DNA of 64,000 nt from an uncultured Dyadobacter sp. (GTDB lineage: Bacteria > Bacteroidota > Bacteroidia > Cytophagales > Spirosomataceae): NCBI RefSeq assembly GCF_946482605.1, contig NZ_CAMLSE010000001.1, forward strand, positions 248,001 through 312,000. Direction: 5' to 3'. The notes beneath the pieces are model-generated. The model saw nothing but the letters and a program-made list of their open reading frames with translations, made no database searches and was not told the origin of the DNA. This document shows, in pieces, positions 40,415 to 64,000 of this stretch (position 1 is the first letter of the stretch; the number at the start of each line of letters is the position of its first letter). The position numbers were made by a program, and so were the translations under genes.

Positions 40415-42340
<1,926 letters not shown>

Positions 42341-43507: not shown

Positions 43508-44614
43508 TTAATGGGCTCTGCCCGTTTCTACGTAAGTATCTTCATCGCCGGTTGGCTTGCCCTGCCACCACGACGCGAGTATCGACCCGGTGATGTTCAT
43601 CAATGGCCCGAAAATCGCCGGTGCCAGCCCCACGGTTGCCATTTTGCCCATTTCCTTGGCAATACCGGATGCCAAACCGCCATTCTGCATACCTACCTCG
43701 ATCGCAATGGTGCGGCAATCGCGTTCACTCATCCTGAACAAACGGCCCGACCAGTAACCCAGCGTGTAACCCGACAGATTGTGGATCAGGACGAGCAGGA
43801 GCAGGGTAGGTCCGATCGACAAGAGATTGTCACGGCCGGCTGCGGTAATGATCACGATAATGAATGCGATCCCGGCCATGGAAACCAGCGGCATCGCGGC
43901 ATCGAGCCATTTTACCTTACCGCTGAACAGTTTGTTGAACAGTAACCCTGCACCGATCGGGATGATCACCATTTTGATAATATCCCACATCATGTGCAGC
44001 GTATCGATCTTCACGAACGCCCCCGCGAGCATGCTCATCAGGACGGGTGTTACGATGGGCGCCAGCATGGTGGAGATGGCGGTAATGGTGATGGATAATG
44101 CAAGATTTGCTTTGGCAAGATAAGAGATCACATTCGAAGCCATACCGTTTGGAGAGCAGCCGATCAAAATGATACCTGCCGCGATCTCAGGCGGGAAACC
44201 ACTGAGGTTCGCCAGGGTATAACCGATGGTTGGCATAATAATAAAGTGGCTCACGACGCCGATCAGCACGCCTTTCGGCATTTTAACGACGCCCACAAAA
44301 TCACCGAAGCTCATGGACGTGCCCATGCCGAACATGATGATCTGGATCAACGGAGTAATGAGTGCGGCCAGTTTGAAATCACCTACCGTGAGGAAATGCT
44401 GCGGGTAGTACAGCGCGGTGGTCACTGCCGCAAAAATGACAGTGGTGTAGGTAAAACCTTTCAATTTTTCATAACCCCGGAAGCTGACAGCAAGTGAAAT
44501 AAAGAACGCGATAAAAAAGGGGCCGGCCGAGGGGAGGTTTCCGCTGAATGCCAGATAGAGTGCTATCAGCAGGCAAACCACGGCGACGCCGGACAGAAGC
44601 TTGTAAATATTCAT
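43508..44614 (-). CDS. Bile acid:sodium symporter (BASS) family transporter
   Basis: 368 residues with ten membrane segments. The family pattern is visible: the fourth-helix signature IILIGCSPNGMASNVISYLAKANLALSITITAIST (about 155-190) with the sodium-site Gly-Ser-Pro, and ECDR-like GRLFRMSERDCRTIAIEVGMQNGGLA in helix 8. BASS proteins carry bile acids, pantoate, pyruvate or other organic acids with Na+. It closes the deacetylase-hydrolase-RraA gene row, after a terminator at 44655-44684, so it is transcribed from its own promoter or by read-through. Start ATG 44614; a longer frame to 44635 exists. Confidence 0.9.
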   Translation of the reverse strand: MNIYKLLSGVAVVCLLIALYLAFSGNLPSAGPFFIAFFISLAVSFRGYEKLKGFTYTTVIFAAVTTALYYPQHFLTVGDFKLAALITPLIQIIMFGMGTSMSFGDFVGVVKMPKGVLIGVVSHFIIMPTIGYTLANLSGFPPEIAAGIILIGCSPNGMASNVISYLAKANLALSITITAISTMLAPIVTPVLMSMLAGAFVKIDTLHMMWDIIKMVIIPIGAGLLFNKLFSGKVKWLDAAMPLVSMAGIAFIIVIITAAGRDNLLSIGPTLLLLVLIHNLSGYTLGYWSGRLFRMSERDCRTIAIEVGMQNGGLASGIAKEMGKMATVGLAPAIFGPLMNITGSILASWWQGKPTGDEDTYVETGRAH

Positions 44615-44654
44615 ATAAATGTATTTAAAATGCAATTTGAAAAAAGGAAAGAAA

Positions 44655-44684
44655 ATTTCCTGTCTGCTTTACCAAACAGGAAAT
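44655..44684 (-). terminator. Hairpin terminator after the RraA-like gene
   Basis: Nine-base stem ATTTCCTGT / ACAGGAAAT; on the minus strand the run TTTTCTTTCCTTTTTTC follows. 27 bases past the stop at 44711. Confidence 0.75.
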
Positions 44685-44710
44685 GCTGAAAACCGGGCCG
44701 GGTTACCCCC

Positions 44711-45643
44711 TTACCAGGTTCTTTTTTTCATGTATTCGTCGAGTTCCGAACGCTTCATGGGGATTTCGTTCGGGTTTTTGTCAAGCCATTTCAGGAAGTC
44801 ATTTTTCAATGAATCGCTCCATTGGCTGTCGATCTGGCCCGGTGTGTACTTGCCTTCTTTCAGCATTTGAATGCCGAATTTGTCACGTAGTGCAATGAAC
44901 TCAGCAGTTTGGACCACTTTCTCGACCATATGTGCGGGGATGAAGATCACGCCTTCTTTTTTGGCAAGCACCAGGTCTCCGGGCAGCACGATGGCGCGTC
45001 CGATCCGGATCGGCGTGTTAAGGCCTGTCAAAACCTCATCTTTCAGATAAGACGGGTCAAAGTCGCGGACAAATGCATTGAAACCCGGAATTTTGGATAG
45101 GCCGTCGAGGTCGCGTGCAGAGGCGTCGAATACCACTCCATTGCCTGTTTTGGCGAAAATGGAGTTCGCCAGATTATCTCCGATCAGCGTTCCTTCGACG
45201 ATTTTCCCCATGCCGTCGGCCACGTATACGTCGCCTTTCGTCAGCACGTCAATCGGCCAGGAGTTGGTATTTCCGATACGGCCGTTTTTGGCGCCGCGAT
45301 CTTTGATATTTTTTTCGATATCGGGGCGTGAAGGCATGAACTGCGCTGTTACTGCACGCCCGGCGATCACGACGTCGTCGTGCACAATTTTCCAATTGCC
45401 TTCGAACTGGCAGTTGTATCCGTCATTTTTGAGTACAACCCAGGCCTCCTCCGTATTGATTTCCTTCGCACGGCGAACGAGGTCGTCGGAAATCTTGGGG
45501 CGTCCGTCGGGGAAGCGTTCGCCTTTCCATTCGGAGGTCAGGAAAATGAGTTCTTCCTTCGGGATGGTTTGGGATTCGGCCGTTTGCAGGCCTCCCAGTG
45601 TCAGGGTTAGGATCGTTGTTAAAGAGAGAATCGGTAATTTCAT
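44711..45643 (-). CDS. Exported RraA/HMG-aldolase-fold protein
   Basis: 310 residues. Begins with a Sec signal (LSLTTILTLTLGGLQTAESQ, cleavage near 25), unusual for this normally cytoplasmic fold. The RraA core (about 60-260) is present: GRAVTAQFMP, GDNLANSIF (155-163), NGVVFDASARDLDGL with Arg177-Asp178, which in the aldolase members bind the metal and oxo-acid, and VLPGDLVLAKKEGVIFIPA. About 45 extra residues form a C-terminal tail. Members cleave or decarboxylate 4-hydroxy-4-methyl-2-oxoglutarate-type acids, or inhibit RNase E; the former role fits an exported protein. 54 bases after the CocE hydrolase gene. Confidence 0.85.
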   Translation of the reverse strand: MKLPILSLTTILTLTLGGLQTAESQTIPKEELIFLTSEWKGERFPDGRPKISDDLVRRAKEINTEEAWVVLKNDGYNCQFEGNWKIVHDDVVIAGRAVTAQFMPSRPDIEKNIKDRGAKNGRIGNTNSWPIDVLTKGDVYVADGMGKIVEGTLIGDNLANSIFAKTGNGVVFDASARDLDGLSKIPGFNAFVRDFDPSYLKDEVLTGLNTPIRIGRAIVLPGDLVLAKKEGVIFIPAHMVEKVVQTAEFIALRDKFGIQMLKEGKYTPGQIDSQWSDSLKNDFLKWLDKNPNEIPMKRSELDEYMKKRTW

Positions 45644-45697
45644 GAGATAAGAAAAAAGAGTTCAGCTAGAATGTGAGTGGATAAAATTAGGCAAAAA

Positions 45698-47485
45698 TCA
45701 GTTACCGCTGAGGTCGCTGACGACGGGCAGCAAGATATGACTTACACGCGCACCGCCGTAATGGACGGTCTGGCTGGCAATCCGGGTTTTGGTACTCGTC
45801 CCCAGCGGCTCCCCGGTGTTGGGGTTTCTGTCGAATTGCGGGAAGTTGCTCGATGTAATGTCGACCCGGATGCGGTGGCCGGGCTGGAACACGTTGGCGG
45901 TTCCTGTCATTTCGATATCGTATTCATAAACCTGGCCTGGCGTGAGGAGCTTCATTTTATCCAGCCCTTCACGGAACTTGGCTCGGATAATGCCCTCCGA
46001 AACCGGCATTGCGAAGCCGTCGGGATAGACATCCACCAATTTGATCATCCAGTCGGTATCACGTCCATCGGTAGCAGCGTGCAGCTTCATTTTCACCGGA
46101 CCGGCGATCGTCACCGGTTTTTCGAGGAAGTCGCCCGTGTATACGAGTACGTCCCCGCGCTGTTCAAGCGGGCGCTGGTCGCGAGGGCCGGCGGGGGTAG
46201 GCGTACCGCAGCAGTTGTTGCCGCCTGTGGTCGGTACCGGGCTTTGCGGATCATAGGCATATTGGTCGGTTCCCGCTTTGGCAGGCTTGCTGAATGACAG
46301 TTTGCCCTGGCCGCGCACAGAGTTGGCTGCCGCATTGCCGTCGAGGTACAATTCCCTGAACTGTGTCCCGGGAACAGGCCAGTCCGTTTCGGCCCGCCAT
46401 TGATTTACACCCATATAAAACAATCGCACGGGCTTGTCAGTATCGATGCTGTTTTTGATGCCTTTCAAATGGTAGTCGAAAAATGCGAGCTCGGTTTCGA
46501 ACTGCTCTACGAAAGCGGCTGGGGTAAAATCGACGTCGCCGAATTTCTGCGATGGGCCATGTCCCCACGGACCAATGATCATGCGGGCTCCGTTGCGGGC
46601 CTCCGGCGTCGCTCCCTTATTTTTCATCCCGACATACCCGTTGATCGTTCCCATGACGAAAATGTCGAACCAACCGCCGGAGACGTAAGTAGGCACTTTG
46701 ATTTTATCAAAACGCTCCTCGTCGCTGATCGCCTTCCAGTAATCGTCGTAACTCTCGTGCCTGATCCAGTCGCGGTAATGCGGTACCACGGCGCCTGCAC
46801 TCTGAAGGTCGCCGTTCTGCAAAGGCAAATGCATGAGGACATTAGCGTATTTCAGTTCTTCGGGCGTATAATTTTCGGTATGCCAGTACTGCGGCAGCAT
46901 GATGCGGTTGGGCATTCTCACGACGCCCCAGCCATAGTTGAAGCTGAGACGGAACGCGCCACCCATGGTGATCCAGTTGGCATAAATATTGGTGGAGGCC
47001 AGCGAGGGGAACGCCGCCACCAGATGCGGCGGGTTCAGGCTTGCGGCCTGCCACTGGTTATGTCCAAGATAACTTCCACCCTGCGTTGCCACCTTTCCAT
47101 TCGAAAACGGCTGAGCGGCAGCCCATTCGATGGTGTCGTAACCATCCTTCGCCTCGTCACGGAACGGCTCCCATTTGCCGTCGCTCTCGTAGCGGCCGCG
47201 CACGTCCTGCACTACTACCGCATAGCCGCGCTGCGCAAACCTGATCATCGTTTGGTGGACACCGTCGCGCTGCACGCCGTAGGGTGTGCGCGTGATGATA
47301 GTAGGGTAGCGCCCGGGCGTTGCAGGCATGTACACATCTGCATACAGCACCACGCCGTCGCGCATACGCACGGCTTTGTGCCGTTCGATGCGGATCTCAT
47401 TGAGCGTGTTATCCGCAAAGAGGGAAGCACCCGCCGAGAGAATGGCCAGGACCGCCAGCAAGAGGGAACGAAAGGGTTTCAGCAT
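45698..47485 (-). CDS. Exported CocE/NonD-family serine hydrolase
   Basis: 595 residues. Sec signal ending GASLFA (about 24). Alpha/beta-hydrolase domain (30-400) with nucleophile Ser138 in GGSYLGHNQW; residues about 400-590 form the jelly-roll X-Pro dipeptidyl-peptidase C-terminal domain (PVKMKLHAATDGRDTDWMIKLVDVYPDG, RIRVDITSSNFPQFDRNPNTGE). Such enzymes hydrolyse cocaine-type esters, alpha-amino-acid esters or X-Pro peptides in the periplasm. Between the deacetylase and the RraA-like gene, with 32- and 54-base gaps, so in one transcript. Confidence 0.93.
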   Translation of the reverse strand: MLKPFRSLLLAVLAILSAGASLFADNTLNEIRIERHKAVRMRDGVVLYADVYMPATPGRYPTIITRTPYGVQRDGVHQTMIRFAQRGYAVVVQDVRGRYESDGKWEPFRDEAKDGYDTIEWAAAQPFSNGKVATQGGSYLGHNQWQAASLNPPHLVAAFPSLASTNIYANWITMGGAFRLSFNYGWGVVRMPNRIMLPQYWHTENYTPEELKYANVLMHLPLQNGDLQSAGAVVPHYRDWIRHESYDDYWKAISDEERFDKIKVPTYVSGGWFDIFVMGTINGYVGMKNKGATPEARNGARMIIGPWGHGPSQKFGDVDFTPAAFVEQFETELAFFDYHLKGIKNSIDTDKPVRLFYMGVNQWRAETDWPVPGTQFRELYLDGNAAANSVRGQGKLSFSKPAKAGTDQYAYDPQSPVPTTGGNNCCGTPTPAGPRDQRPLEQRGDVLVYTGDFLEKPVTIAGPVKMKLHAATDGRDTDWMIKLVDVYPDGFAMPVSEGIIRAKFREGLDKMKLLTPGQVYEYDIEMTGTANVFQPGHRIRVDITSSNFPQFDRNPNTGEPLGTSTKTRIASQTVHYGGARVSHILLPVVSDLSGN

Positions 47486-47517: not shown

Positions 47518-48789
47518 CTATCTTCTGGAAACGACGATCGGATTGGTCAGACCGTTGAGGTCATACACGACTCTGCCGGCCCGGATCGTTACTTCCGCTT
47601 CGAGTTTCTGTTTGCCCTGCACTTTGGAACCCGTATAATCGAAGAACCCGAATGTTCCGGTGTCGTTCATCTGGAATTTACCGTCGAGCACACGTAATAC
47701 CGAGACGTCGGCGCGTGAGCCTACCGAAAGGTTGCCCAGCTCTTCCCGGTGGATAGCCTGTGCGGGTGCCCAGGTGCTGGCCTTGATGACCGCCGGCAGG
47801 TCCATGCCCATGGCCAGGAACTTGGACATGACGTTGAGCATGTCCTTCATCGCATTGTTCATGCTGCCGGTGTGAATGTCGGTGCTGATGGTATTGGGAT
47901 AAAAGCCTGTTTTGACGGCAGGAATGGCCTGCGAGAATGCAAAACTGATACCGCCGTAACCCACGTCGAAAATGATGCCTTTCTTGCGTGCTTCATAAAC
48001 GAAAGGCTTCACCTTGCCCGCCGCTACATCCACGATCGGTTCCCGGCTGCTGAGCTGACCGAAGCAATGCGTGAAAATATCACCGGGGCGGAGGTGTTTC
48101 ATGAATAGCTCTTCAATCGGCAATACAGGCTGGCTGCCGCCGAAGTCGATCATGACCGGGATGTTGGCAAGTTTGCCTGCTTCCACGGCACGGTCGGTGG
48201 GTGCCCAGTTGTAGCCATTAAAGTGGGCCAGCTTGATACCGACAATGTATTCGGGATACTCCTTGGCAACTTTTGCAGTGGCGGCGGCATCCATATCCTC
48301 CACGTTCTGCTCGTAAGTGCCTCCGCGCATTCCCTCTCCTACGATGTTGAGGAACGAGAGTACCCGGGTTCTGGAAATGTCAATGGTTTGTTTCTTGAAA
48401 TCGGGGAAGGACTTCCAACCTGCGCAGCCCGCGTCTACCACGGTGGTTACACCGGTGCGGAACGTAAAGCCGTCGGGAGGGAGGGCATTGGGACCATTGC
48501 TGTAAGTCTGGTCCATTTTAGTGCCATAGAAATTGTGGGAATGGATGTCGATCAGGCCGGGCGTTACGAAAAGCCCTTTGGCATTCACCACCTGCACCCC
48601 TTCTTTGGCGTCGATGTTTTTGGCTACCAGCATAACAGTATCGCCTTTGAGCGCGACGTCCATGATGCTGTTGACGTTGTTTTTAGGGTCAATTACATGA
48701 CCGCCCTTGATAATAACCGAATACTTTTGCGCATGGGCGATACCGGCACAGCAGAAAAGGGCAGCGGCAAATAATACTTTTTTGATCAT
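47518..48789 (-). CDS. Exported amidohydrolase/deacetylase-family metallohydrolase (copy 1)
   Basis: 423 residues. Sec signal ending GIAHAQ (about 21). A metal-dependent TIM-barrel amidohydrolase: DIHSH (first two metal His), VGIKLAHFNG with a Lys that is often carboxylated, PGDIFTHCFG and STDIHTGSM for the remaining ligands. It matches the amidohydrolase/deacetylase group near dihydroorotase and EF_0837, which removes acyl groups from amino acids or amino sugars. Its cytoplasmic relatives have no signal. A second copy lies at the window end (62786-64000). First gene of the deacetylase-CocE-RraA operon; the SusD terminator lies upstream. Confidence 0.9.
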   Translation of the reverse strand: MIKKVLFAAALFCCAGIAHAQKYSVIIKGGHVIDPKNNVNSIMDVALKGDTVMLVAKNIDAKEGVQVVNAKGLFVTPGLIDIHSHNFYGTKMDQTYSNGPNALPPDGFTFRTGVTTVVDAGCAGWKSFPDFKKQTIDISRTRVLSFLNIVGEGMRGGTYEQNVEDMDAAATAKVAKEYPEYIVGIKLAHFNGYNWAPTDRAVEAGKLANIPVMIDFGGSQPVLPIEELFMKHLRPGDIFTHCFGQLSSREPIVDVAAGKVKPFVYEARKKGIIFDVGYGGISFAFSQAIPAVKTGFYPNTISTDIHTGSMNNAMKDMLNVMSKFLAMGMDLPAVIKASTWAPAQAIHREELGNLSVGSRADVSVLRVLDGKFQMNDTGTFGFFDYTGSKVQGKQKLEAEVTIRAGRVVYDLNGLTNPIVVSRR

Positions 48790-48957: not shown

Positions 48958-50526
48958 TTATTTATCCCACCAAACCACACTCGAAAGCGTATTCGTGCCG
49001 CCCTGACGCGTACGTGCTTCGTAAAAGTTCACCTGATTGTATTGCTCTTCCGAATCGGGAATGACGAAACGGGTAGGGATTTTACCACCTGTCAGGTTAC
49101 CTGGATAGTTGGTAGGTGTCAGTTTTGGATAGCCGGTACGTCTCCAGTTAGAGAAGATCTCATATTCGTCTTCCAGGAAAAGGGTTACCCATTTCTGCGT
49201 ACCGATCTGTTCCATTTTGTCAGCCATTGTGCCAGCCGCTTTGAAAGGGTTTGCTTTCAGGTAAGCAGCGATCTTCGCGTCGGAAATCACTCCGGCAGTA
49301 CCGAACAATGCCCATTGTTTCAGCCCCGACGTTACCGCCGCATTGTAAGACGCTTCCGCAGTAGCGCCGCTATACCAGCCTCTCAGATTGGCTTCTGCAA
49401 GCAGGAGGTGCATTTCCGCAGGCGTCAGAACCAGCAAAGGTGCATTGTATTTCAGGATAGTGGCAGGGTTAGGCTCCGAGTAAGAGTCAAAATCTGCCGG
49501 CAATCCGTTGAAGGCTGCGTTTGGCATACCTTTCTGGAGTGCCGTCGTAGTGTCAGCCACATATGCGGAATTGGCAGTAGGCTTCGTCCATACGATGGCG
49601 ATCACATTAAGGCGTGGATCCTTGGTCGTTTTCAGGTGGTCGATCAGCGTTTTGGCAAACTTGCCGCCTTCGACGTTATCACCGCCCGGATTTACGTAAT
49701 CGGTACTCATCAGGCCCGCTGAAATGAAGTTACGGCTTGCAGTAATGGAACCATCCACGTAGTCGATTTTAGCCAGATCTGAGTCGGCCGTGATCACACC
49801 GCCTGCAATGGCTTTCTTCACCCAGGTTTCAGCCATAGCGGGATCTATTTCGGTCAAACGCATTCCGAGTCGCAACATCAGCGAATAACCGAATTTTTTC
49901 CACTGTCCCACATTCCCGCCGTAAACCAGGTCTGCATTGCCGAAAGTTACCTTGCTGGCATCAAATGCGGCAATCGACTCGTCGAGTTCTTTCAGCAGAT
50001 CCGCATAAATGGCCTGCTGCGTGTCGTACTTGGGCGTAAAGTTCTTGTCTGTCAGCGCCTTGCCTGCTTCCTTGTATGGGATATCTCCGTACATGTCTGT
50101 CAGGCGGTGGTACAAATAGGCCTTCCAGATGCGGGCTACCGACAGTTTGTTCACGTCATCGGGCGATGTTTTTACCGCGCTGATGACCTGTTCCACGTCA
50201 ATTACCGCACCCGCCGTAGCCGGATCCCCGCCAAAAAGCGCCCAGCTGCCGGTGGAATAGGAGTAATTGAAGTATTTGTCACCTGCGGCCGGCACTTCTT
50301 TGTAAGTCGCGAAGTGCTGCATGGAACCGCCGATGGTCAGGTAAGCGGCACCGGTAAAGTTGTTGCTCACGGTCGTCAGCTGCGTACGGGTGAACAGGAA
50401 GCCTGGCACTACTTCCGTGGAAGCATTGGGATTCACATTCATCTCCTCAAAATTTTTGTCGCAGGAGGAAACGAAGAGGGCCATGGGGGCCAGGTATATT
50501 AATTTCAGGAATTTGTTCATCGTCAC
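48958..50526 (-). CDS. SusD/RagB-family lipoprotein (SusD-like_2 type)
   Basis: 522 residues. Lipobox VSSC (Cys22) anchors it to the outer-membrane surface. CDKNFEEMNVNPNAST at the start of the mature part and the TPR-rich WKAYLYHRLTDMYGDIPYKEAGKAL block are typical of the second SusD-like family, which binds ligands other than starch, often peptides or small organics. The C-terminal part (EQIGTQKWVTLFLEDEYEIFSNWRRTGYPKL) is the usual helical-repeat face. Starts 15 bases after susC, so the pair is co-translated and forms the surface uptake complex. Confidence 0.95.
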   Translation of the reverse strand: MTMNKFLKLIYLAPMALFVSSCDKNFEEMNVNPNASTEVVPGFLFTRTQLTTVSNNFTGAAYLTIGGSMQHFATYKEVPAAGDKYFNYSYSTGSWALFGGDPATAGAVIDVEQVISAVKTSPDDVNKLSVARIWKAYLYHRLTDMYGDIPYKEAGKALTDKNFTPKYDTQQAIYADLLKELDESIAAFDASKVTFGNADLVYGGNVGQWKKFGYSLMLRLGMRLTEIDPAMAETWVKKAIAGGVITADSDLAKIDYVDGSITASRNFISAGLMSTDYVNPGGDNVEGGKFAKTLIDHLKTTKDPRLNVIAIVWTKPTANSAYVADTTTALQKGMPNAAFNGLPADFDSYSEPNPATILKYNAPLLVLTPAEMHLLLAEANLRGWYSGATAEASYNAAVTSGLKQWALFGTAGVISDAKIAAYLKANPFKAAGTMADKMEQIGTQKWVTLFLEDEYEIFSNWRRTGYPKLTPTNYPGNLTGGKIPTRFVIPDSEEQYNQVNFYEARTRQGGTNTLSSVVWWDK

Positions 50527-53988: not shown

Positions 53989-54197
53989 AATTTTGATTTT
54001 TGTCGGGTTAAAATTCGGCATAATAGTTCCCACAGCAGCCTCATTCAGATGCTGTTAAGCGTACACAAGCATGGGGATTGATCGGGTCGGTGATGTTGCA
54101 GCATCATCGGCCTTTTTTGGAAATGGAAATTAGTAGTCGTTTCTGGTCATAGGCACCGCTGAATTTGTCATAAAGTATTGAGAGAAAGGTAATTTCA

Positions 54198-55304: not shown

Positions 55305-55681
55305 ATAATAATATGGCTAATTTTAATAAGGATGCAAGAAGATTAGGTCAATACTCTCTTTTTGAGAAATTTTTTTGATCTTTTTGCGAAACAGGCACCA
55401 TGCCGAGCGACTTCCTGATCGCGTTGTTCCGCCGCCATTTGTATAGTGATAGTGGCCTGTGGATCATTGATTGATTTCAATAATATCCATTACTCAATAT
55501 TTTGCGCGCTACTTTATCCGGTAATTGTTTGGCGGAGGGGCTGCCGGTGTCAGAAAATAATTACGCGGATGGCTTTTCAAGGGAGTTGTAAAGTGCTCAA
55601 TGTAAGTGGAGCACTGCCAGATGTAATGCCGAAATTGTTAAATTTGGTGACGGTCAATCAAGGGTCTTAAAAGCGGAAACG
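55305..55681. other. Intergenic region between fecR and hicB
   Basis: 377 bases between divergent genes. It must hold the fecR and hicBA promoters; no exact TAnnTTTG box is seen. A short ORF (about 55401-55472, 23 codons) and the 55568-55670 stretch have no recognisable product and may be remnants. No hairpin or repeat of note. Confidence 0.4.
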
Positions 55682-55906
55682 ATGAAGCTAACTGTTGTAA
55701 TTACTCAAGGTGAGGAAATGCTGATCGGGCAAGTTCGGGAAGTACCCGGTGTTATCACGCAAGGAAACAATGTGGAGGAGGTCATGGACAACATTCAGGA
55801 GGCTTTGGAACTGTATTTCCTGGATTCAGATGTAGTTCTGGAAAGTAATAGCGCAAAACTCAACTTCAAAAACATCGTATCCACTCAGGAACTTGAATTT
55901 GCCTGA
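55682..55906 (+). CDS. hicB: HicB-type antitoxin
   Basis: 74 residues. A short HicB of the single-domain kind: a beta-strand (LTVVITQGEEMLIGQV), EVPGVITQGNNVEEVMDNIQEALELYF helix, no DNA-binding C-terminal domain. Forms a complex with HicA to block it. The stop overlaps the hicA start by one base (TGATG). The order is antitoxin first, reversed from E. coli hicAB but common in Bacteroidota. Confidence 0.85.
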   Translation: MKLTVVITQGEEMLIGQVREVPGVITQGNNVEEVMDNIQEALELYFLDSDVVLESNSAKLNFKNIVSTQELEFA

Positions 55907-56097
55907 TGTCAGTAAAGCGCAACGAATTTATAAAGCATCTGGAAAAGCATGGATGTTTTCTCAGAAGGCATGGGGCAAAGCATGATCTCTATGTCAATCG
56001 AAATCAAAATTCGCGCACAACTGTCCCGAGACACCCGAGGTTAGATAAATCGCTTTGCGACGCGATATGCAGGCAACTGAGTATCGATAAGTTCTAA
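55906..56097 (+). CDS. hicA: HicA-type mRNA interferase toxin
   Basis: 63 residues with the double-stranded-RNA-binding fold of HicA. KHLEKHGCFLRRHGAKHDLY contains the catalytic His of the GxKHxxY motif, and the VPRHPRLDKSLCDAICRQL end fits the family. Cleaves mRNA and arrests growth when free of HicB. Ends 20 bases before the acyltransferase stop on the other strand. Plus-strand island in a minus-strand cluster. Confidence 0.88.
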   Translation: MSVKRNEFIKHLEKHGCFLRRHGAKHDLYVNRNQNSRTTVPRHPRLDKSLCDAICRQLSIDKF

Positions 56098-56117
56098 ACA
56101 GTTCTTGCAAGGATACT

Positions 56118-57308
56118 TTACAGGTACTTTTTTATAACCGGCAGTTTTCGTAGCGGAATGGCCAATGCCCAACTACCTGCGACCGAGACGAAGACTACCA
56201 TCATGAATTTGGCAAATACAGGGAATGGCGTTTGGAGCAGGTAGTATTGTGTCCAAATCACGAATGGATAGTGCAGCAAATAGATCAGGTATGCATGCTC
56301 CGACAGTGAATCCCACACGGCATTCTGCTTTCGGGCCAATGCTCTGAACGTGGTCATAAAAGCAATGCAGCTGAAAGTACAGGACGCGATGTAAATAGAG
56401 AAGTAGATGAGATAGCCGGTGAGCTCGGTTAAGGTTCCTTGCTTCACCAATTCTGTAAGGAGCGGTGACGAAAGCGTGAGTAACGTATAGACACCAGCGC
56501 ACATGACCAGCCATAGGGGATAGCGGCGGACGAGCAACGAATCGATGCCGAACAGTCGATCATTGAAACGTACCTTGCCCAGCCAGGCACCGAGCATAAA
56601 ATATCCAAAATACAATGCTGCCCTCGTGATCTGCATGTCGAACGGCCCGAAGCCTGTCCATTTACCCGGGCCGAGCCAGAACGCGAAGGGAACATACAAT
56701 ACAAAGGTGAACAGAAACCAGAGCAGGATGACGATCGCGGGTGTGTATGTGCGGGGGGCTGGCGCTTCCACCGATGCATTCGCGGCAGATCTGAAGACCG
56801 ATTTTTTGAGAACATAGATCAATGCGAATGCTACATTGAACAGGAACAGCACCCATATAAACCATGGCGGCCCGACCGGCCATTGTTCGATGCCGAAGAA
56901 GTCAATCACGTAATCCCGGATGTTTCCATTGCCGTGGGCGATCAGGTAGGCTGGGTAATGGGCAATGAGATTGAGCAGGGTGCCGCCCAGCAGGAATGGT
57001 ATAAACAGCCGGAAAAACCGGTCGCGTATGAACGCGAATGCGCCTTTACGCTCTACGCTTTTGACGACGAACAGCCCGGCGACCAGGAACATCAGCGACA
57101 TGAAGAAAACGTCGTTGAAGTTCTCGAAAATATCCATCCCGATCCAGCGGCTTGCGTCCACGACAGGATGGGTGGAGCGAATGTAAGCGACTTTGTCAAA
57201 ACTGGCGAAAGTAGTGTAGGCCAGGGAGGAATGGTGCGCTACCACCAGAACGGTCAGAAAAGAACGGAGGTAGTCGATCCAGAGGGTTCGGCTGGCAGCT
57301 TGGTTCAT
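56118..57308 (-). CDS. Acyltransferase-3-family (OpgC/OafA-like) membrane protein
   Basis: 396 residues with ten membrane segments. The catalytic motif RTLWIDYLRSFLTVLVVAHHSSLAY begins the protein, with the conserved Arg and His (VVAHHS). The cluster members transfer acetyl, succinyl or other acyl groups to sugars, lipids or antibiotics in the periplasm. Start: ATG at 57308 (MNQAAS), the family's usual first segment; the frame is open to 57359. Lies 90 bases after the sigma gene on the same strand. Confidence 0.87.
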   Translation of the reverse strand: MNQAASRTLWIDYLRSFLTVLVVAHHSSLAYTTFASFDKVAYIRSTHPVVDASRWIGMDIFENFNDVFFMSLMFLVAGLFVVKSVERKGAFAFIRDRFFRLFIPFLLGGTLLNLIAHYPAYLIAHGNGNIRDYVIDFFGIEQWPVGPPWFIWVLFLFNVAFALIYVLKKSVFRSAANASVEAPAPRTYTPAIVILLWFLFTFVLYVPFAFWLGPGKWTGFGPFDMQITRAALYFGYFMLGAWLGKVRFNDRLFGIDSLLVRRYPLWLVMCAGVYTLLTLSSPLLTELVKQGTLTELTGYLIYFSIYIASCTFSCIAFMTTFRALARKQNAVWDSLSEHAYLIYLLHYPFVIWTQYYLLQTPFPVFAKFMMVVFVSVAGSWALAIPLRKLPVIKKYL

Positions 57309-57398
57309 ACGTAATAGTTTGTTACCGAAAGGATGCATGCGATATGCCTTCGGTTGCACGGAGTGAGGGATTTGTTAAAAAAGAGATACTAACGTTGC

Positions 57399-58010
57399 CT
57401 AGGCGATCAGTGTGAAGCAAAGCAAGAGCAGGTTGCTGATCGGGTGAATGTGCTGTTTGAGCGAGGTAATGGCTTTGAAAAGCAGGTTGGCGACGGATTG
57501 CCGGTTTACCTGCATCAGATCGGCGATCTGCTCATTGTCCATGCCTTCAAAGTATTTGAGAAAAACGGCTTCTTTCTGGCGGCGTGGCAACTCGTCAATC
57601 GCAATCCTCACTTTGACCTGATTCTCGGTGAGCAGCTCATTGCGTTCAATCTCTGTTTCTATAGTCTGGTAATCGGATAACTGTCCGGCTTCGTCGATAT
57701 CCAGAAAGGGGTGGGAGCCATTGCTGCGGCGAAACTCCTGCATGAGCTGGTTTCGCAATGCACGCAGGAAATAAATGGTTACGAACTGGATCTGAATATT
57801 TTGTCGCCTTTCCCAAATATGGATCAAAAGGTCCTGAATGGCGTCTTTGATGAATTCGCGGTCGGCGGAGAAGTGGCAGGCGTAGTTGAAAAGCGTGCGG
57901 TATTGTTTGTCGGCCAGTTGGCAAAATGCCAGACTGTCCCCGGCCTGGCTTTGTTGCCAGAGATTCAAAAGCACTTCATTCTCTTCAGCGATGCGTTGTC
58001 TCTTGTTCAA
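57399..58010 (-). CDS. ECF RNA polymerase sigma factor
   Basis: 203 residues. Region 2 (about 25-95) has the KDAIQDLLIHIWERRQN core; region 4 (about 130-185) has PRRQKEAVFLKYFEGMDNEQIADLMQVNRQSVANLLFKAI. A Bacteroidota-type sigma regulated by FecR. It likely controls the fecR-susC-susD genes. No cognate promoter box is recognised. Confidence 0.92.
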   Translation of the reverse strand: MNKRQRIAEENEVLLNLWQQSQAGDSLAFCQLADKQYRTLFNYACHFSADREFIKDAIQDLLIHIWERRQNIQIQFVTIYFLRALRNQLMQEFRRSNGSHPFLDIDEAGQLSDYQTIETEIERNELLTENQVKVRIAIDELPRRQKEAVFLKYFEGMDNEQIADLMQVNRQSVANLLFKAITSLKQHIHPISNLLLLCFTLIA

Positions 58011-58289: not shown

Positions 58290-58748
58290 CTAAACATATG
58301 CAATACAGTCGATTTCGACGAGGGAGTCTCCTGGCACACCGCCATATACCGCTACGGTGGTGCGGCAGGGCGGCTTGCTGCCGAAGCGTCCTTTGTATGC
58401 TTCGTTCATCGCCTTATAATCGTTCAGGTCGTGCAGGAACACACTGCATTTCAGCACTTTTTCCATCGATGAGCCTGCTTTGATCAACTCCTTTTCCAGC
58501 TCATCCAGTACGTGCTTGGTGTGGGCCGTGATGTCGCCGTCGAAGTGGGCTCCTTTGCCTGCGACGAATACCAGGTTATTGAATTTGGTGTGTCCGGAGA
58601 AAAGGGGAACATCCTGGTACATTTCCACATCACCTACCTCTTTCTCAGGTGCAGCCTCGGCCTTTGCCTTCGATGCAACACCCAGACCTGCTACTCCGGC
58701 GACGGATGCAAACAGCTTTTTAATAATGGATCTTCTTTCAGATTTCAT
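58290..58748 (-). CDS. Exported RidA-family protein (YjgF fold)
   Basis: 152 residues. Unlike typical RidA it starts with a signal peptide (ERRSIIKKLFASVAGVAGLGVASKAKA, cleavage near 32, with a twin-Arg-like start). The core (about 45-152) has the RidA pattern: FVAGKGAHFDGDITAHTKHVLDELEKELIKAGSSMEKVLKC, Arg129 that binds the substrate carboxylate, and the final GDSLVEIDCIAYV. RidA hydrolyses reactive imines or enamines formed from amino acids by PLP enzymes or oxidases. In the periplasm it would act on imines made by the dehydrogenases next door. 38 bases after the 493-residue dehydrogenase gene. Confidence 0.9.
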   Translation of the reverse strand: MKSERRSIIKKLFASVAGVAGLGVASKAKAEAAPEKEVGDVEMYQDVPLFSGHTKFNNLVFVAGKGAHFDGDITAHTKHVLDELEKELIKAGSSMEKVLKCSVFLHDLNDYKAMNEAYKGRFGSKPPCRTTVAVYGGVPGDSLVEIDCIAYV

Positions 58749-58786: not shown

Positions 58787-60268
58787 TTACGAGGTCTTCT
58801 TTTTGGATTTTTTGGCTACCTTTTCATTGGCAGGAAGTGTAATTTTCCAAAGGCTTCCGCCCGCTTTGTTCCCACCCTGCTTGCCGCCATACTCGATCAC
58901 GTAAAGGGTGTTACCGATAAGCAGCGCATCGGTAGGAGCGGTGAAATTATTGATAATACTTGTGGTCTTGGTTTTGTAATTGTCGGTCTTCTTATCGTAG
59001 ACCATTTCCAGGTGGAGCAGATCCTTGCCATACCTGCGCAATGGGTTCGGATTGACGACGCCGTTGCGGGGCCCGCCCGTGTAGCGGATCACGAAACCAT
59101 CACCGGTTAGATCCTTACCGAGCGTGTTATGCGTATCGAAGAAAAGGCCTAGCGGGGATGAATGCGCATTGAATGTACCCACGGTTACGCCGGTGGTGTC
59201 TCCATCCATGACCACGCCGGTATTGCGGTCGCGGTACTCGTTGGCATCCGGCCCCATGTTCTGCACTGCAGGGGAAAATTTCACGCCCTCAGGCCTTTTC
59301 GGAAACTCCGGATCGTTGTGAAAATATTTCATCAGAAAGGCAAATGCAAACTTGCTCAGGAATGGATCTTTCTCAGGATCGGGTTGGAAATCCGGAAACT
59401 GCTGAGGGTTATCAATGCCCCCCATTACCCACGGAAAACCATAGTGATGCCCCTTGCGCACCCAGAACATATCTTCCGGGTGATCGTAGTCCCCGGAGTT
59501 GGATACCGCGAAAAGGTTGCCTTTGGCATCAAATGCCATATCGTAGGCATTTCGGATTCCTTCCGCGTAGATATAGCCATCGGCTTTCAGCTTGGCCACA
59601 TCGGTTGAAAGCAGCAGATCCTTGGAGTCGATCGGGAAGCGGAAGATGTTAGCGGTGAGGGCGTTATCGCGGGCGTTGGGGTATTCGCCTCCATTGTCCT
59701 GCACTTCGCCGTGGTCGGTGCGCGCGCCGGTATTCACGTAAATGTATTTACCGTCCGGACTGATTTCCAATGCATTCCAGCCATGGTCGAAAGTGGTTTT
59801 GTTGGCTCCGTATTCCACCGTATTGAACACCACCGTCATTTCAGGTTTTTCAACACCCTTCGTCATTTCGTAACGGACCATACGGCCTTTGTTACCCTTG
59901 TTGTTGTTCACGCTCACGTTCCCTGCGAGGAATAATGTGTTGCCATGGAAGGCCGTGCCCTGTAAGCGGGGAATACCATGATCTTCCACAGAGAGCAGTT
60001 TCTTGCTCACCGGCTTGCCATCTTCGATTACGATTTTAACCACATCTCCGAAAAAGGTCGTGTAATAGATTTCTCCGGTGACCGGATGCTGGATGAGGCG
60101 AACAGCTTCCGGCTCTACCTTCATGTACTCTTCAATGGTAATGTCGTCGCGAAGTGCTTTGGGGACGGACGTGGTGACCTCCCGTTGTTGTCCGAAAATA
60201 GGAAACGTCATGCCCAGAGCGAGCACCGACGTAAATCCGGACTTGATAATGCGGCTGTAAGGGAACAT
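58787..60268 (-). CDS. Exported sorbosone/glucose-dehydrogenase-like beta-propeller (493 residues)
   Basis: Sec signal ending TFPIFGQ (about 27). Six-bladed propeller of the GSDH/PQQ-dependent sugar dehydrogenase type; blades start with VRLIQHPVTGEIYYTTFFGDV, YGFPWVMGG carries the region that holds PQQ and Ca in soluble glucose dehydrogenase, and DGFVIRYTGGPRNG closes a blade. Oxidises a sugar or alcohol and passes electrons to a quinone or cytochrome. No cytochrome domain of its own, unlike the next gene. Between the cytochrome c gene (60407) and ridA-like gene. Confidence 0.8.
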   Translation of the reverse strand: MFPYSRIIKSGFTSVLALGMTFPIFGQQREVTTSVPKALRDDITIEEYMKVEPEAVRLIQHPVTGEIYYTTFFGDVVKIVIEDGKPVSKKLLSVEDHGIPRLQGTAFHGNTLFLAGNVSVNNNKGNKGRMVRYEMTKGVEKPEMTVVFNTVEYGANKTTFDHGWNALEISPDGKYIYVNTGARTDHGEVQDNGGEYPNARDNALTANIFRFPIDSKDLLLSTDVAKLKADGYIYAEGIRNAYDMAFDAKGNLFAVSNSGDYDHPEDMFWVRKGHHYGFPWVMGGIDNPQQFPDFQPDPEKDPFLSKFAFAFLMKYFHNDPEFPKRPEGVKFSPAVQNMGPDANEYRDRNTGVVMDGDTTGVTVGTFNAHSSPLGLFFDTHNTLGKDLTGDGFVIRYTGGPRNGVVNPNPLRRYGKDLLHLEMVYDKKTDNYKTKTTSIINNFTAPTDALLIGNTLYVIEYGGKQGGNKAGGSLWKITLPANEKVAKKSKKKTS

Positions 60269-60387: not shown

Positions 60388-60406
60388 AGTATATTTAAAA
60401 ATTGTT

Positions 60407-60838
60407 TCACTCTGTTTTACCCAGATGCCGGATATATGCCACTAGCTGCCACCTCTGCTCGGCGGTGAAGACATCCTGGAACGGCGGCATGTTACCGCGG
60501 CCATTGGACATTTTCCAATACAAGGAGCCATCACTCTGCGCTTTGACGAGCGTGTCGTGGAAATTCGCCGGTTTTTGTCCCAGCGCACCGCCTGCGGCAC
60601 CGTCGCCATAGCCGGTTTCGCCATGGCAGGAGGAACAGTACAGTGTAAAAAGTTCTTCACCCTGGGCGAGCGTCAGCGGTTCTTCGTGATATGGGCTTTT
60701 TAATGTATCGGCCCAGGCCGGTGCTTTCCAGGGCTCCTGGCTGTTATGTTCAAAATGATGTTTTTCCGAAGAGAACCCAGCGAGGCCCAGTCCGGAAAGA
60801 ATGATGAAGCTTGCGGCTGAAATTTTATTCTTAAGCAT
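60407..60838 (-). CDS. Small c-type cytochrome
   Basis: 143 residues. Sec signal ending LAGFSS (about 25). Heme motif CSSCH (Cys68, Cys71, His72) and distal Met117 in RGNMPPF. Class I monoheme cytochrome, periplasmic, that probably takes electrons from the neighbouring dehydrogenases to the respiratory chain. Confidence 0.92.
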   Translation of the reverse strand: MLKNKISAASFIILSGLGLAGFSSEKHHFEHNSQEPWKAPAWADTLKSPYHEEPLTLAQGEELFTLYCSSCHGETGYGDGAAGGALGQKPANFHDTLVKAQSDGSLYWKMSNGRGNMPPFQDVFTAEQRWQLVAYIRHLGKTE

Positions 60839-60866
60839 GGATACAGAAATGGTGGATTATAAGCTT

Positions 60867-60950
60867 GCCATTCTTCCTCCAACCCCTGTAAAGGAACACT
60901 CAATTGCCGGAGAGTAATATCCGCTCAAACGGGGTTGGAAGATGAATGGC
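60867..60950. repeat. Long imperfect inverted repeat between the cytochrome and dehydrogenase genes
   Basis: Two 20-base arms, GCCATTCTTCCTCCAACCCC (60867-60886) and a complementary copy at 60931-60950, differ at two positions. The 44-base loop shows nothing I recognise. No T-run follows, so it is not a standard terminator; it may stabilise or process the mRNA. Confidence 0.65.
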
Positions 60951-60961
60951 GTAATGTCTTG

Positions 60962-62692
60962 CTATTTGAGCGATGCTCGCACCTTAGCTACTTCTTCTGT
61001 CGTGACAGGCCCTGCATTGTTTCCGAAATTGCTCCGGATATGTGTCAGTACCTCTGATATTTCTTCATCCTTCAAAAAGCTGTGCTGCGGCATTACATTG
61101 TTATAGGCCTGTCCTTTTACCTCGATAGGGCCTTCCAGTCCACTCAACAGTACTTTAATGAGCCGCTCTTTGTCGCCGGTAACCCATTCTGCGCCTCCCA
61201 ATGGTGGAAAACGCTGTGAGTCGCCCATACCATTGCGCTGGTGGCAGGCCGTGCAATACACGCTGTAAACCTTTCCGCCGGCAACCGGTTTGTCTTTATC
61301 CAGATTATCGTTCACGAAGTCGGGCGTACGGATGTGCGACATCGTTTTGCGTTGCTCCATTTTCGCCAGCGCAGGTTTCCCGAATTTCTTCTTATTGCCT
61401 TTGTAGGTCACTTTCCAGATCTTACCTTTTTCCGTTTCCGCAATGTAGATCGATCCGTCAGGCCCCATGGCTATTCCCATCGGACGGTAAACTGCGTCGC
61501 TGACGTTCACGACCGGGTCGAGGCCGGCGAAACCGTCGGCAAAAACTTCATATTCGCCTGCTACCTGGCCATTTTTGAAAGGAACGAATCCGATAAAATA
61601 GCTCGATTGCGGGTACGGTGCGCGGTTGGTGGAGCCGTGGAATGCGATGAACGATCCGTTTTTGTAATGCTCAGGCAACTGGTTTCCCTGGTAGAACAAG
61701 ATGTCGTTCGGTGCCCAGTGACCGGGGAAGCCGATCAACGGTTTTTCATATTGATCGCATTGGCCTACGATTTTACCGTCTCCGCCATATTCGGGGTTCA
61801 GGACTTTTTTGGATTGCATCTGGTCCCAGTAGCAGTAGGGCCAGCCCGCGTGGGTTCCTTCTTTGACTCTCAGAAACTCTTCGGACGGGAGCATGGCGCT
61901 TTGCCAGCCGTTGTAAAGCTGTGGCCAGAGCCGCAACAGGTCGTCGCGACCGTGTTGTACTGCATATAGATTATTGTCGGCAAAATTCCAGTCCAGAGCC
62001 ACCACGCTTCTGAGGCCGGTGGCAAACTTGGTGCCGTCTTTCTGCAATTGCCCCGTTTTGTTGGCGTCGAATTTCCAGATACCGCCGTGGTCTTCGAGGA
62101 TCGGGCATGGATCCATTCCTTTGGAGCCCGGTGTGCGGTTTTGTTCCTGGCAGGCATTGGAATTGGCACCGAAAGGGACGTACATGAAACCCTTGTCGTC
62201 GAATGTAATGGGTTTAGCAATGTGCTCGTGCATGCCGTGTGGGTGATCGTCGGTCAGGATCACTTCCTCGGGGCTATCGGGTACAAGTTGTCCGGGCGTG
62301 AGCTTGTAGCGATAAACCACCAGCTCAGAGCTGAAATACAGGTAACCTTTGTAGATGCGCATGGCCGTTCCATAGGCGCGCTCTTTGGCCGCACCACCGA
62401 ATCGCTTGATGATGTCCGCGCGGCCATCCTTGTTCGTATCACGCAATGCGATCACGGATTCGCCCTTGTCGGCGAACCGTGCTTTTACATATATGTCTCC
62501 GTTATCGTTGATCGCAATGTGCCTTGCGCGACCCGGAAGGCTGTCGACTACCACAGTGGCTTCGAACCCGTCCGGTAAAAACAAACCGCCGTTCTTTGTA
62601 TTAACGACCGGCAAATCCTGATCAGAATGCTGCGTAAACCCCAGTGCAAACAGCACGAGAAGAGAAGCAGACCATTTGAAACGCGTTTTCAT
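60962..62692 (-). CDS. Exported propeller dehydrogenase fused to cytochrome c (576 residues)
   Basis: Sec signal ending ALGFTQ (about 20). N-terminal six-bladed GSDH/PQQ-type propeller (about 30-430: FLPDGFEATVVVDSLPGRARHIAINDNGDIYVK, FGANSNACQEQNRTPGSKGMDPCPIL, MGIAMGPDGSIYIAETEKGKIWKVTYKG). A C-terminal cytochrome c domain (about 470-550) carries CTACH (Cys480, Cys483, His484) and distal Met534. Electrons can thus flow from substrate to heme within one protein. Related to but not identical with the 493-residue neighbour. 123 bases before the small cytochrome. Confidence 0.85.
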   Translation of the reverse strand: MKTRFKWSASLLVLFALGFTQHSDQDLPVVNTKNGGLFLPDGFEATVVVDSLPGRARHIAINDNGDIYVKARFADKGESVIALRDTNKDGRADIIKRFGGAAKERAYGTAMRIYKGYLYFSSELVVYRYKLTPGQLVPDSPEEVILTDDHPHGMHEHIAKPITFDDKGFMYVPFGANSNACQEQNRTPGSKGMDPCPILEDHGGIWKFDANKTGQLQKDGTKFATGLRSVVALDWNFADNNLYAVQHGRDDLLRLWPQLYNGWQSAMLPSEEFLRVKEGTHAGWPYCYWDQMQSKKVLNPEYGGDGKIVGQCDQYEKPLIGFPGHWAPNDILFYQGNQLPEHYKNGSFIAFHGSTNRAPYPQSSYFIGFVPFKNGQVAGEYEVFADGFAGLDPVVNVSDAVYRPMGIAMGPDGSIYIAETEKGKIWKVTYKGNKKKFGKPALAKMEQRKTMSHIRTPDFVNDNLDKDKPVAGGKVYSVYCTACHQRNGMGDSQRFPPLGGAEWVTGDKERLIKVLLSGLEGPIEVKGQAYNNVMPQHSFLKDEEISEVLTHIRSNFGNNAGPVTTEEVAKVRASLK

Positions 62693-62718
62693 AGGTTAAT
62701 TAAGAGGGGTTTAGGGAA

Positions 62719-62784
62719 ACTTCGGCTATCGGCAGTCGGCTATCGAACTTTGTAAGCCGATGGCCGACTGCCGACAGCCGAAGT
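62719..62784. repeat. REP-like inverted repeat next to the copy-2 deacetylase stop
   Basis: 27-base arms (62719-62745 and 62758-62784) with two mismatches, built of CGGC-x-ATCGGC-type units like those at 60329-60387. The right arm ends one base before the deacetylase stop codon (62786). Confidence 0.75.
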
Positions 62785-62785
62785 A

Positions 62786-64000
62786 CTACTTCAAATATAT
62801 CGGCTTCGTGATCCCGTTTAGATCATAGACAATTTTTCCGCCCATGACGGTCAATTCGCATTCGAGTTTTTCTTTGCCTTCGACTTTATAACCGGTTTTG
62901 TCATAAAAGCCGAAGTTGCCTTTGCGCATCGAGAATACAGCCACATCGGCGATCGCTCCTTCCGAGATGTGTCCCAATTGTTCGCGGTGGATCACTTTGG
63001 CGGGTTCCCAGGTGCTGGCCCTGATCACCGCCGGGAGGTTCATTCCCATATTATAAAACTTCGACATAATGCTCAGCATATCCTTCATCGAGCCGTTCAT
63101 GCTGCCCGTGTGGAGGTCGGTGCTGATGGTATTGGGATAAAAACCGGCTTTCATGGCCGGGATCGCCTGCGAGTAGTTGAAACTTGCGCCGCCGTAGCCT
63201 ACGTCAAAAATAATGCCTTTTTTACGCGCTTCCAGTGCGAATGGTTTTACTTTTTGTGTGGCTTCATCCACGATGGTTTCCCGCACATTGCCTTCCAGCA
63301 ACGTGTATGCGTGTGTGTATATGTCGCCGGGGCGAAGGTGCTTCATAAACAGCTCTTCGAGTGGGAGCGGAGGCGTGCTGCCGCCGAAATCGATCATAAC
63401 CGGCATATTGGCCAGCTTTCCGGCTTTCACCGCATTATCGACCGGCTTCCAGTCCTTACCCATGAAATGCGCAACTTTAAAGCCGACCACGTCATTGCGG
63501 TTCTTGATCGCAACGCCAGCGGCCAGGTTGGGGTCCATATCTGCCGTGTCCTGCTCCCAGTTGCCGCCGCGCATGCCTTGTCCCACGATGTTGAGCAGGG
63601 ATAATACGCGTGTTTTTGAATTGAAAATTACATTGTTTTTAAATTCAGAAAACGAGTCCCAGCCGGCACCGCCTGCATCGACGATCGTCGTCACGCCTAC
63701 GCGGAAGGTGAAACCGTCGGGCGGTAACGCCACCAAACCATTACTGAGGTAATGGTTTGGCTCGGTACCGAAAAACACATGTCCGTGAATATCGATCAGT
63801 CCTGGCGTTACGTACATGCCTTTGGCGTCCACGACCTGCCGGGCTTCCGCGGGATCAATGTCCCGGGCAACCTTTTTGATTTTCCCCTCAAAAATACCGA
63901 CGTCCATCACGGCATCGATATTGTTTTTGGGGTCGATCACCGTGCCGCCTTTGATCAGTACGCTGTAAGTCTGGGCGTTGCAAACCGCACCGGCCAGACA
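62786..64000 (-). CDS. Exported amidohydrolase/deacetylase-family metallohydrolase (copy 2), 5' end outside window
   Basis: 405 codons are visible; the frame runs past base 64000, where it reads CLAGAVCNAQTYSVLIKGG, i.e. a signal-peptide end. It aligns along its length with the 47518-48789 gene: DIHGH, GVTTIVDAGGAGWDSF, VGFKVAHFMG, PVMIDFGGSTPPLP, PGDIYTHAY, STDLHTGSMN, and the C-terminal block YDLNGITKP. The first metal motif is DIHGH here and DIHSH in copy 1. Same predicted function and compartment. It opens the dehydrogenase-cytochrome-RidA row. Confidence 0.9.
   Translation of the reverse strand, partial: CLAGAVCNAQTYSVLIKGGTVIDPKNNIDAVMDVGIFEGKIKKVARDIDPAEARQVVDAKGMYVTPGLIDIHGHVFFGTEPNHYLSNGLVALPPDGFTFRVGVTTIVDAGGAGWDSFSEFKNNVIFNSKTRVLSLLNIVGQGMRGGNWEQDTADMDPNLAAGVAIKNRNDVVGFKVAHFMGKDWKPVDNAVKAGKLANMPVMIDFGGSTPPLPLEELFMKHLRPGDIYTHAYTLLEGNVRETIVDEATQKVKPFALEARKKGIIFDVGYGGASFNYSQAIPAMKAGFYPNTISTDLHTGSMNGSMKDMLSIMSKFYNMGMNLPAVIRASTWEPAKVIHREQLGHISEGAIADVAVFSMRKGNFGFYDKTGYKVEGKEKLECELTVMGGKIVYDLNGITKPIYLK

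Follow-up and report, generated by a model that had tools for sequence, protein, structure and literature searches.

Several described systems come closest to the locus analysed here, as far as the accessible portions of the reports describe them. In the ong pathway of Pseudoalteromonas prydzensis ACAM 620, which serves oxidative chitin utilization, N-acetylglucosaminate (GlcNAc1A) is processed by deacetylation, pyridoxal phosphate (PLP)-dependent deamination and a kinase (PMC9537276), and the Dga pathway of Salmonella relies on the ammonia-lyase DgaE and the aldolase DgaF (PMC9529869). FlDet, an RraA-family enzyme of Flavobacterium sp. UMI-01, is a 2-keto-3-deoxy-D-glucarate dehydratase/decarboxylase (PMC8563752). 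The locus lies in a 64,000-nucleotide stretch of DNA from an uncultured Dyadobacter sp. (contig NZ_CAMLSE010000001.1, positions 248,001 to 312,000; hereafter the window), where fourteen genes form a 20-kb minus-strand run that starts with the gene for a BASS-family carrier (43508) and reaches the window end (64000) within that for a deacetylase. All of the genes named in the original prediction, which was made from the letters of the window, were found at 43508–64000 on the minus strand with family matches. We consider that an N-acetyl-amino sugar acid is probably broken down in the cell envelope by this cluster. The substrate would be N-acetylglucosaminate or a stereoisomer of it, and the gluco form itself is a more tentative assignment.

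The locus would resemble the ong pathway in TonB-dependent uptake, in the deacetylation of an unphosphorylated N-acetyl-aminoaldonate, in a PLP-dependent deamination to 2-keto-3-deoxygluconate (KDG) and ammonia, and in its RidA-family protein, which is essential in ong. In contrast, OngB and OngC are predicted to be cytoplasmic, whereas leaders of the twin-arginine translocation (Tat) and Sec types are recognised here by motif; the OngB deacetylase most resembles D-aminoacylases, whereas the deacetylases here belong to cog3964; and the sodium:solute symporter (SSS) family carrier, KdgK kinase and OngR repressor of ong are replaced by a BASS carrier, RraA and a sigma/FecR pair. The ong substrate arises through a lytic polysaccharide monooxygenase plus hydrolases, and no RraA, GSDH dehydrogenase or cytochrome is named in the accessible part of that report. 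Of the hallmarks of ong, the RidA-family protein is thus present, but a D-aminoacylase-type OngB and cytoplasmic catabolism with an SSS carrier are not. With the Dga pathway, the locus shares the family and fold of the PLP lyase and, by our reading, a 2-keto-3-deoxy product that would be cut by an aldolase; it differs from the phosphotransferase uptake and phosphorylated substrate described for Dga, no DgaF-type aldolase was identified in the locus, and RraA would take its place. FlDet provides a precedent for a Bacteroidota RraA-family enzyme acting on a 2-keto-3-deoxy sugar acid, although in an alginate pathway. No description of an exported RidA/DgaE/cog3964 pathway was found in the open-licence literature, a search that did not cover subscription papers; the original statement that no pathway of this composition had been described holds within that literature, but the ong pathway is a described cytoplasmic analogue.

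The comparison with DgaE turns on a PLP enzyme (approximately 409 residues) whose gene is repeatedly found between those for RidA and the deacetylase in loci outside Dyadobacter. In the window strain, its gene would sit just past base 64000, as judged from relatives. The lyase is present in all 12 of the Dyadobacter genomes that were searched and read further upstream in longer stretches, and in each of them a copy 65–68% identical to the query adjoins deacetylase 2, directly upstream. The order in these genomes is lyase, deacetylase 2, a dehydrogenase–cytochrome fusion (GSDH2c), a c-type cytochrome (CytC), a second dehydrogenase (GSDH1), RidA and a sigma factor; GSDH2c is present in 11 of the 12 (not found in L099), and the sigma gene adjoins RidA in all 12 upstream regions. 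The L023 lyase matches the DgaE family, with 173.5 bits to TIGR01437 (cut-off 385.3), the best NCBIfam model, and 134.9 bits to NF047797 (cut-off 600), so that it scores under both curated D-glucosaminate-6-phosphate ammonia-lyase (DGL) cut-offs; the PLP-binding lysine and the overall fold of the family are retained.

The residues Arg301, Arg332, Arg346 and His163 have been named for DGL in the part of the report that is accessible (PMC9529869). At the three phosphate-site positions, arginine occurs in 1, 0 and 0 of one set of 17 lyases and in 0, 0 and 0 of another 28, and the His163 column contains histidine in 0/17 and 0/28. DGL without its proton-donor histidine reportedly releases the enamine, and the lack of this histidine would explain why the lyase is tied to RidA.

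DgaE-family enzymes also occur in other settings. A longer type of about 543–561 residues is found at L166 (8855–10540), L069 (1396–3042) and L071 (7731–9359), the L069 and L071 proteins having a C-terminal extension, and distant longer copies (approximately 35% identity) occur in several genomes. The surroundings of the distant copies range from no other cluster gene (L172) through a deacetylase only (L174) and deacetylases with GSDH2c (L173) to a stretch with GSDH1, CytC, a deacetylase, RidA and SusCD (L166). Copies of approximately 60% identity in L175 and L176 stand alone, and since solitary copies exist, a lone DgaE does not imply the pathway. In one haloarchaeal case, the DgaE gene adjoins heparinase II/III genes. 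When 118 genomes sampled across the phylum were searched, 46 contained a match at E ≤ 0.001, but all matches other than that of G001 were weak (E 5e-8 or worse) and were not counted as DgaE; they probably represent SelA-like enzymes or general class-V aminotransferases.

Both PLP lyases and RidA are usually regarded as cytoplasmic. The window RidA (58290–58748; PF01042, E 1.8e-19; TIGR00004 63.4, below the cut-off of 106.25) begins with the twin-arginine leader MKSERRSIIKK, and its twin arginines, Arg129 and Glu145 are invariant in 20/20 aligned members; the conserved arginine has a catalytic role in RidA proteins. The lyases likewise carry twin arginines in 17/17 members from RraA loci and 28/28 further members, including the 12 that adjoin deacetylase 2 in Dyadobacter. 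A crude hydropathy test identified hydrophobic N-terminal stretches in RraA, the CocE hydrolase, deacetylase 1, GSDH1, CytC, GSDH2c and SusD, and the counterpart of deacetylase 2 in L093 begins with a Sec-like leader. The earlier proposal of a largely exported gene set is thus borne out by leaders recognised from motif or hydropathy, with the exception of deacetylase 2, of whose signal the window shows only a part at most, and the invariant motif argues for the proposed envelope location of RidA. Dyadobacter frigoris encodes an additional member of the YjgF/RidA family, which has a Sec-like leader, between deacetylase 2 and GSDH2c (L104, 12022–12573).

The distribution of these genes was followed in 194 evenly drawn Cytophagales genomes, with cut-offs of E ≤ 1e-30 for the lyase, E ≤ 1e-20 for RidA and E ≤ 1e-60 for cog3964. 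The lyase was found in 14/194 genomes, RidA of the window type in 13/194 and cog3964 in 14/194, and these are the same genomes; the sole lyase genome without RidA, G194, has a partial lyase match (query 207–406, 45%). If genomes were independent, the probability of all 13 RidA genomes falling within the 14 lyase genomes would be 2.4e-19, a value that serves as ranking evidence only, since the genomes are not independent: five of the 14 lyases (G001 included) are at least 87% identical to that of Dyadobacter sp. CY261. Around the lyase, cog3964, RidA and a GSDH gene are present in 13 of the 14 genomes, the exception again being G194. RraA occurs in 34/194 genomes, including all 14 lyase genomes, and was therefore rejected as module-specific.

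Conservation of the cluster was examined in the loci of the best 80 of 307 RraA relatives (30 from Dyadobacter and 50 from other genera). Locus counts based on open reading frames (ORFs) are lower bounds, as genes under longer antisense ORFs were missed (for example, the L007 deacetylase and the L032 RidA). SusC and SusD are present in 30/30 Dyadobacter loci, the carrier adjoins RraA in 27/30, and deacetylase 1 was found by tblastn in 24/30 (missing from L009, L010, L011, L018, L019 and L026). Beyond the genus, the genes for RidA, the PLP enzyme, the deacetylase, RraA and the carrier follow one another compactly in this order in Mucilaginibacter, Niastella and Chitinophaga (L037, L039 and L048), and Xanthocytophaga, Parachryseolinea and Flagellimonas (L041, L044 and L071) have the same genes arranged differently. 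Conservation of the neighbourhood in relatives had been proposed as the test on which the original prediction could fail, and the core recurs beyond the genus; the run thus appears to be one conserved unit and not a chance assembly. The closest RraA relative is that of CY261 (L001; 97%), and over its final 6 kb, the window is approximately 82–87% identical at the DNA level to several Dyadobacter stretches.

The two cog3964 amidohydrolases of the window, deacetylase 1 (47518–48789, with a Sec-like leader) and deacetylase 2 (62786–64000, truncated at the 5′ end by the window boundary), exceed the NF006689 cut-off of 371 bits with 446 and 432 bits, respectively. The match of PpOngB (9kb1) to the deacetylase is best over residues 22–87 (E 2.6e-5). 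In the alignment, both window enzymes have aspartate where Atu3266 (2OGJ) has the histidine of its MVHVG motif, and a MIDFGG-like form is found in 43/45 full-length family members; Atu3266 is said to have acetyl-(R)-mandelate esterase activity. No comparable gene set was found at the cog3964 loci of Mesorhizobium, Thermomicrobium and Rhizobium, and in Pantoea, where cog3964 neighbours RraA and a DASS carrier, no lyase is annotated.

Several features point to the oxidation of a sugar as the entry step. GSDH1 (58787–60268, with a Sec-like leader), the c-type cytochrome (60407–60838; PF13442, E 7.1e-14) and GSDH2c (60962–62692; PF07995 and PF00034) lie side by side, and the GSDH domains of both pyrroloquinoline quinone (PQQ)-type dehydrogenases score above the Pfam cut-off. 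This domain is shared with sGDH, Asd and the AA12 enzymes, from which GSDH2c differs in its fusion to cytochrome c and GSDH1 in its low identity: PQQ sugar dehydrogenases rank first by fold for the GSDH1 model, with 11–18% identity in structural alignments. The GSDH2c profile matches the AA12 quinoproteins 6i1q, 6h7t and 6i1t (E 7e-5). A lactonase, either the 7-blade PF10282 type or an SGL gluconolactonase (matches ≥ 58%), was found within the stretch in 8 of the 14 lyase genomes; it is full-length in 8/12 Dyadobacter stretches, with an edge fragment in one more, and SGL occurs in 5/80 RraA loci.

On plasmid pACIX902 of Granulicella tundricola, the genes for RraA, DgaE, RidA, a second DgaE, cog3964, a lactonase, a berberine bridge enzyme (BBE)/flavin-dependent (FAD) oxidase and a GH35 enzyme run in one direction, together with a short lactonase-like gene and a carboxypeptidase-regulatory-like gene whose 1081-residue product reads as TonB receptor-like. 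Both lyases, RidA and the lactonase carry Tat motifs. Enzymes that oxidise chito-oligosaccharides at C1 are known among the BBE oxidases, and in our view, nothing argues more strongly for an entry by sugar oxidation than the presence of a different kind of sugar oxidase in this setting. The lactonases, the neighbouring GH20 β-N-acetylhexosaminidases found at a few loci and this acidobacterial BBE cluster together point to an N-acetyl-amino sugar that would be oxidised at C1.

The RraA-fold enzyme of the window (44711–45643; PF03737, E 1.8e-16; no NCBIfam RraA cut-off reached) carries a Sec-like leader, and its Arg177–Asp178 pair, which is invariant in 12/12 aligned members, corresponds to the metal-site Arg–Asp pair of the HMG/CHA aldolase family. 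Beside it lies the BASS/SBF-family carrier (43508–44635; PF01758, E 1.6e-37), which is PanS-like although its 235 bits to NF047939 fall below the cut-off of 400. Among the 50 RraA loci from outside Dyadobacter, 16 have two or all three of the amino-module genes but no dehydratase, 20 contain a dehydratase of the mandelate racemase/muconate lactonizing enzyme (MR/MLE) type and no amino-module gene, one contains both, seven have a single amino-module gene and six have neither; many of the 20 dehydratase-only loci come from related genera (Larkinella, Spirosoma and Fibrisoma) and are not 20 independent cases. The closest NCBIfam models of these dehydratases are galactonate/gluconate dehydratases, below cut-off, and an RRx-hydrophobic motif is present in 22/22 full-length sugar-acid dehydratases beside RraA paralogues. 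It thus seems that one type of RraA is supplied with a 2-keto-3-deoxy acid by two routes. Like the lyase and the lactonases, this sugar-acid context had been missed originally; RraA had been linked to the cleavage of 4-hydroxy-2-oxo acids, and a 2-keto-3-deoxy sugar acid is now the preferred substrate. In a Pedobacter locus (L031), a DUF5009 membrane protein is encoded directly after RraA (11295–12452); NagX-like proteins, with which it may be compared, are linked to N-acetylglucosamine use elsewhere.

The uptake and signalling genes occupy the middle of the run: the SusD-like lipoprotein (48958–50526; PF12771, E 2.5e-83), the SusC-like TonB-dependent transporter (50542–54033) with Plug, CarbopepD_reg_2 and an STN signalling domain, the FecR anti-sigma factor (54198–55304; PF04773 and PF16344) and a sigma factor (57399–58010; PF08281 region 4, E 1.2e-12) of the extracytoplasmic function type by its setting beside FecR. 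Their close spacing corresponds to a SusCD/relay set of the polysaccharide utilization locus type.

From the gene content, conservation, co-occurrence, leaders and kept or lost catalytic residues, the following reactions, order and substrate can be proposed. SusCD would take a glycan fragment into the periplasm, where C1 would be oxidised by one or both PQQ-type dehydrogenases, with cytochrome c accepting the electrons, and a lactonase (SGL or 7-blade, in relatives) would open the lactone. Deacetylation by cog3964 would yield a glucosaminate-like 2-amino-2-deoxy-aldonate, from which the Tat-exported lyase may eliminate water across C2–C3 to generate an enamine/imine. Tat-exported RidA would hydrolyse the imine to ammonia and a KDG-like 2-keto-3-deoxy-aldonate, which exported RraA would cleave or dehydrate and decarboxylate, the BASS/PanS-like carrier would import the resulting oxo-acid across the inner membrane, and the sigma/FecR/STN-SusC relay would sense uptake. 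SusCD import, deacetylation, oxidation coupled to cytochrome c and imine clearing by RidA thus persist from the original prediction as supported inferences, but the imine, then attributed to oxidation, is in our view better explained by β-elimination. That the pathway is complete and non-phosphorylative outside the inner membrane, with a lyase that sets free enamine loose for want of the proton-donor histidine, exported RidA as an obligatory step of catabolism and not a housekeeping enzyme, and RraA cleavage in the periplasm, is a bolder claim, to which we give somewhat less than even weight.

A number of observations weigh against this pathway. The lyase itself lies outside the window, where it is placed from relatives; its His163 loop is gapped, making that alignment column the least certain; and the PLP- and oxygen-dependent Cap15, which apparently also lacks His163, is structurally as close to it as DGL. 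The sole lyase of G302 belongs to the distant longer type (37%). The GSDH1 profile gave no match in the PDB up to E 0.1, and the GSDH1 model is of low confidence. No lactonase was found in 3/12 Dyadobacter stretches, including L093, which has the best RraA match. GH20 lies beside the cluster only in L030, L165 and L167, none of them Dyadobacter, with no match in the other loci searched at that stage; as GH20 is common in Bacteroidota, these three cases are suggestive only. No leader is apparent in the annotated form of the Granulicella BBE protein, and the Granulicella RraA is distant (30% identity over 110 residues). RraA lies within approximately 20 kb of the lyase in just 7/14 genomes, elsewhere in six, and in G194 beside cog3964 on another contig. 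Finally, FlDet is a dehydratase/decarboxylase and not an aldolase, according to the accessible text (PMC8563752), so that both activities are possible for RraA.

Some of the same evidence could be read differently. The N-acyl amino acids and amides originally suggested as substrates are now a weaker option, and an exported N-acyl D-amino acid pathway, in which cog3964 would remove the acyl group, the lyase would act on a D-serine- or threonine-like substrate, RidA would clear aminoacrylate and the dehydrogenases would serve another substrate, seems unlikely to us. It would fit the placement of GlcNAc1A deacetylases as a sister group of D-aminoacylases in the accessible part of one report (PMC12017989), although cog3964 is another family, as well as the D-amino-acid specificity of DGL, given in the title of a paper cited within PMC9529869, and the action of RidA on 2-aminoacrylate noted in the available text (PMC9529869). 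However, it leaves the lactonases, the PQQ-type dehydrogenases, GH20/GH35, the BBE oxidase and the occurrence of RraA by dehydratases unexplained, and the closest family with a known substrate acts on glucosaminate-6-phosphate. The likeness of the PLP enzyme to Cap15 makes an oxidase reaction possible, in which an oxygen-dependent enzyme would convert a sugar derivative resembling an amino acid to the imine for RidA; such a role is improbable, since the sequence profile of the lyase scores higher against DGL than against Cap15 (185 vs 167 bits), TIGR01437 is its best NCBIfam model, and Cap15 retains in the alignment the three arginines that the lyase family lacks.

The run might also consist of two touching units with two substrates, one comprising sigma, FecR, SusCD, deacetylase, RraA and carrier, and the other the lyase, deacetylase, dehydrogenases, cytochrome and RidA. 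The presence of two deacetylases, of a second lyase beside deacetylase 1 in 4/12 Dyadobacter genomes (G006, G008, G009 and G010) and of RraA away from the lyase in six of the 14 Cytophagales lyase genomes would suit this division, to which we attach little credence, as RidA, lyase, deacetylase, RraA and carrier are encoded together in one compact run in Mucilaginibacter, Niastella and Chitinophaga, and RraA, the lyases, RidA and the deacetylase likewise in Granulicella. Least credible is the wider pathway of the original prediction, with the CocE/NonD serine hydrolase (45698–47485; TIGR00976, 494 bits) and the Acyl_transf_3 membrane acyltransferase (56118–57359; PF01757, E 1.4e-32) as working parts. 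Both lie in the same run, but CocE was found in 2/80 RraA loci and is not conserved with the core, and the acyltransferase was found by tblastn in 9/30 Dyadobacter loci, a lower bound given that these loci span just 10 kb upstream of RraA, in 0/50 others and in 3/12 longer Dyadobacter stretches; both were rejected as pathway members and treated as passengers. The degradation of an N-acetyl-amino sugar acid thus remains the preferred reading.

Intergenic gaps in the run measure 15–279 bp, except that FecR and the acyltransferase are separated by 813 bp (55305–56117), a gap of 42% GC near whose counterparts in some other Dyadobacter loci small opposite-strand ORFs are found. Outside the run, a minus-strand ORF at 38962–40503 resembles, on reading its sequence alone, two fused thiamine-phosphate-synthase/TenI-type domains with an imperfect internal repeat (GFQPWG...ADQAG...) in the linker, and ThiC-, ThiG-, ThiH- and ThiF-like ORFs surround it in an apparent thiamine operon.

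The conserved Tat leaders of both the PLP lyase and RidA would place the whole of an amino-sugar catabolism in the envelope, couple it to respiration through quinoproteins and give RidA a defined pathway substrate. Two points become open to testing: what RidA does in the breakdown of GlcNAc1A, for which OngD is the counterpart in the accessible description of ong (PMC9537276), and a natural substrate of the cog3964 deacetylases in Bacteroidota. If the pathway operates as proposed, exported RidA would be an obligatory catalytic step, which suggests a role for the essential OngD, and Bacteroidota and Acidobacteriota would possess another route for oxidised amino sugars.

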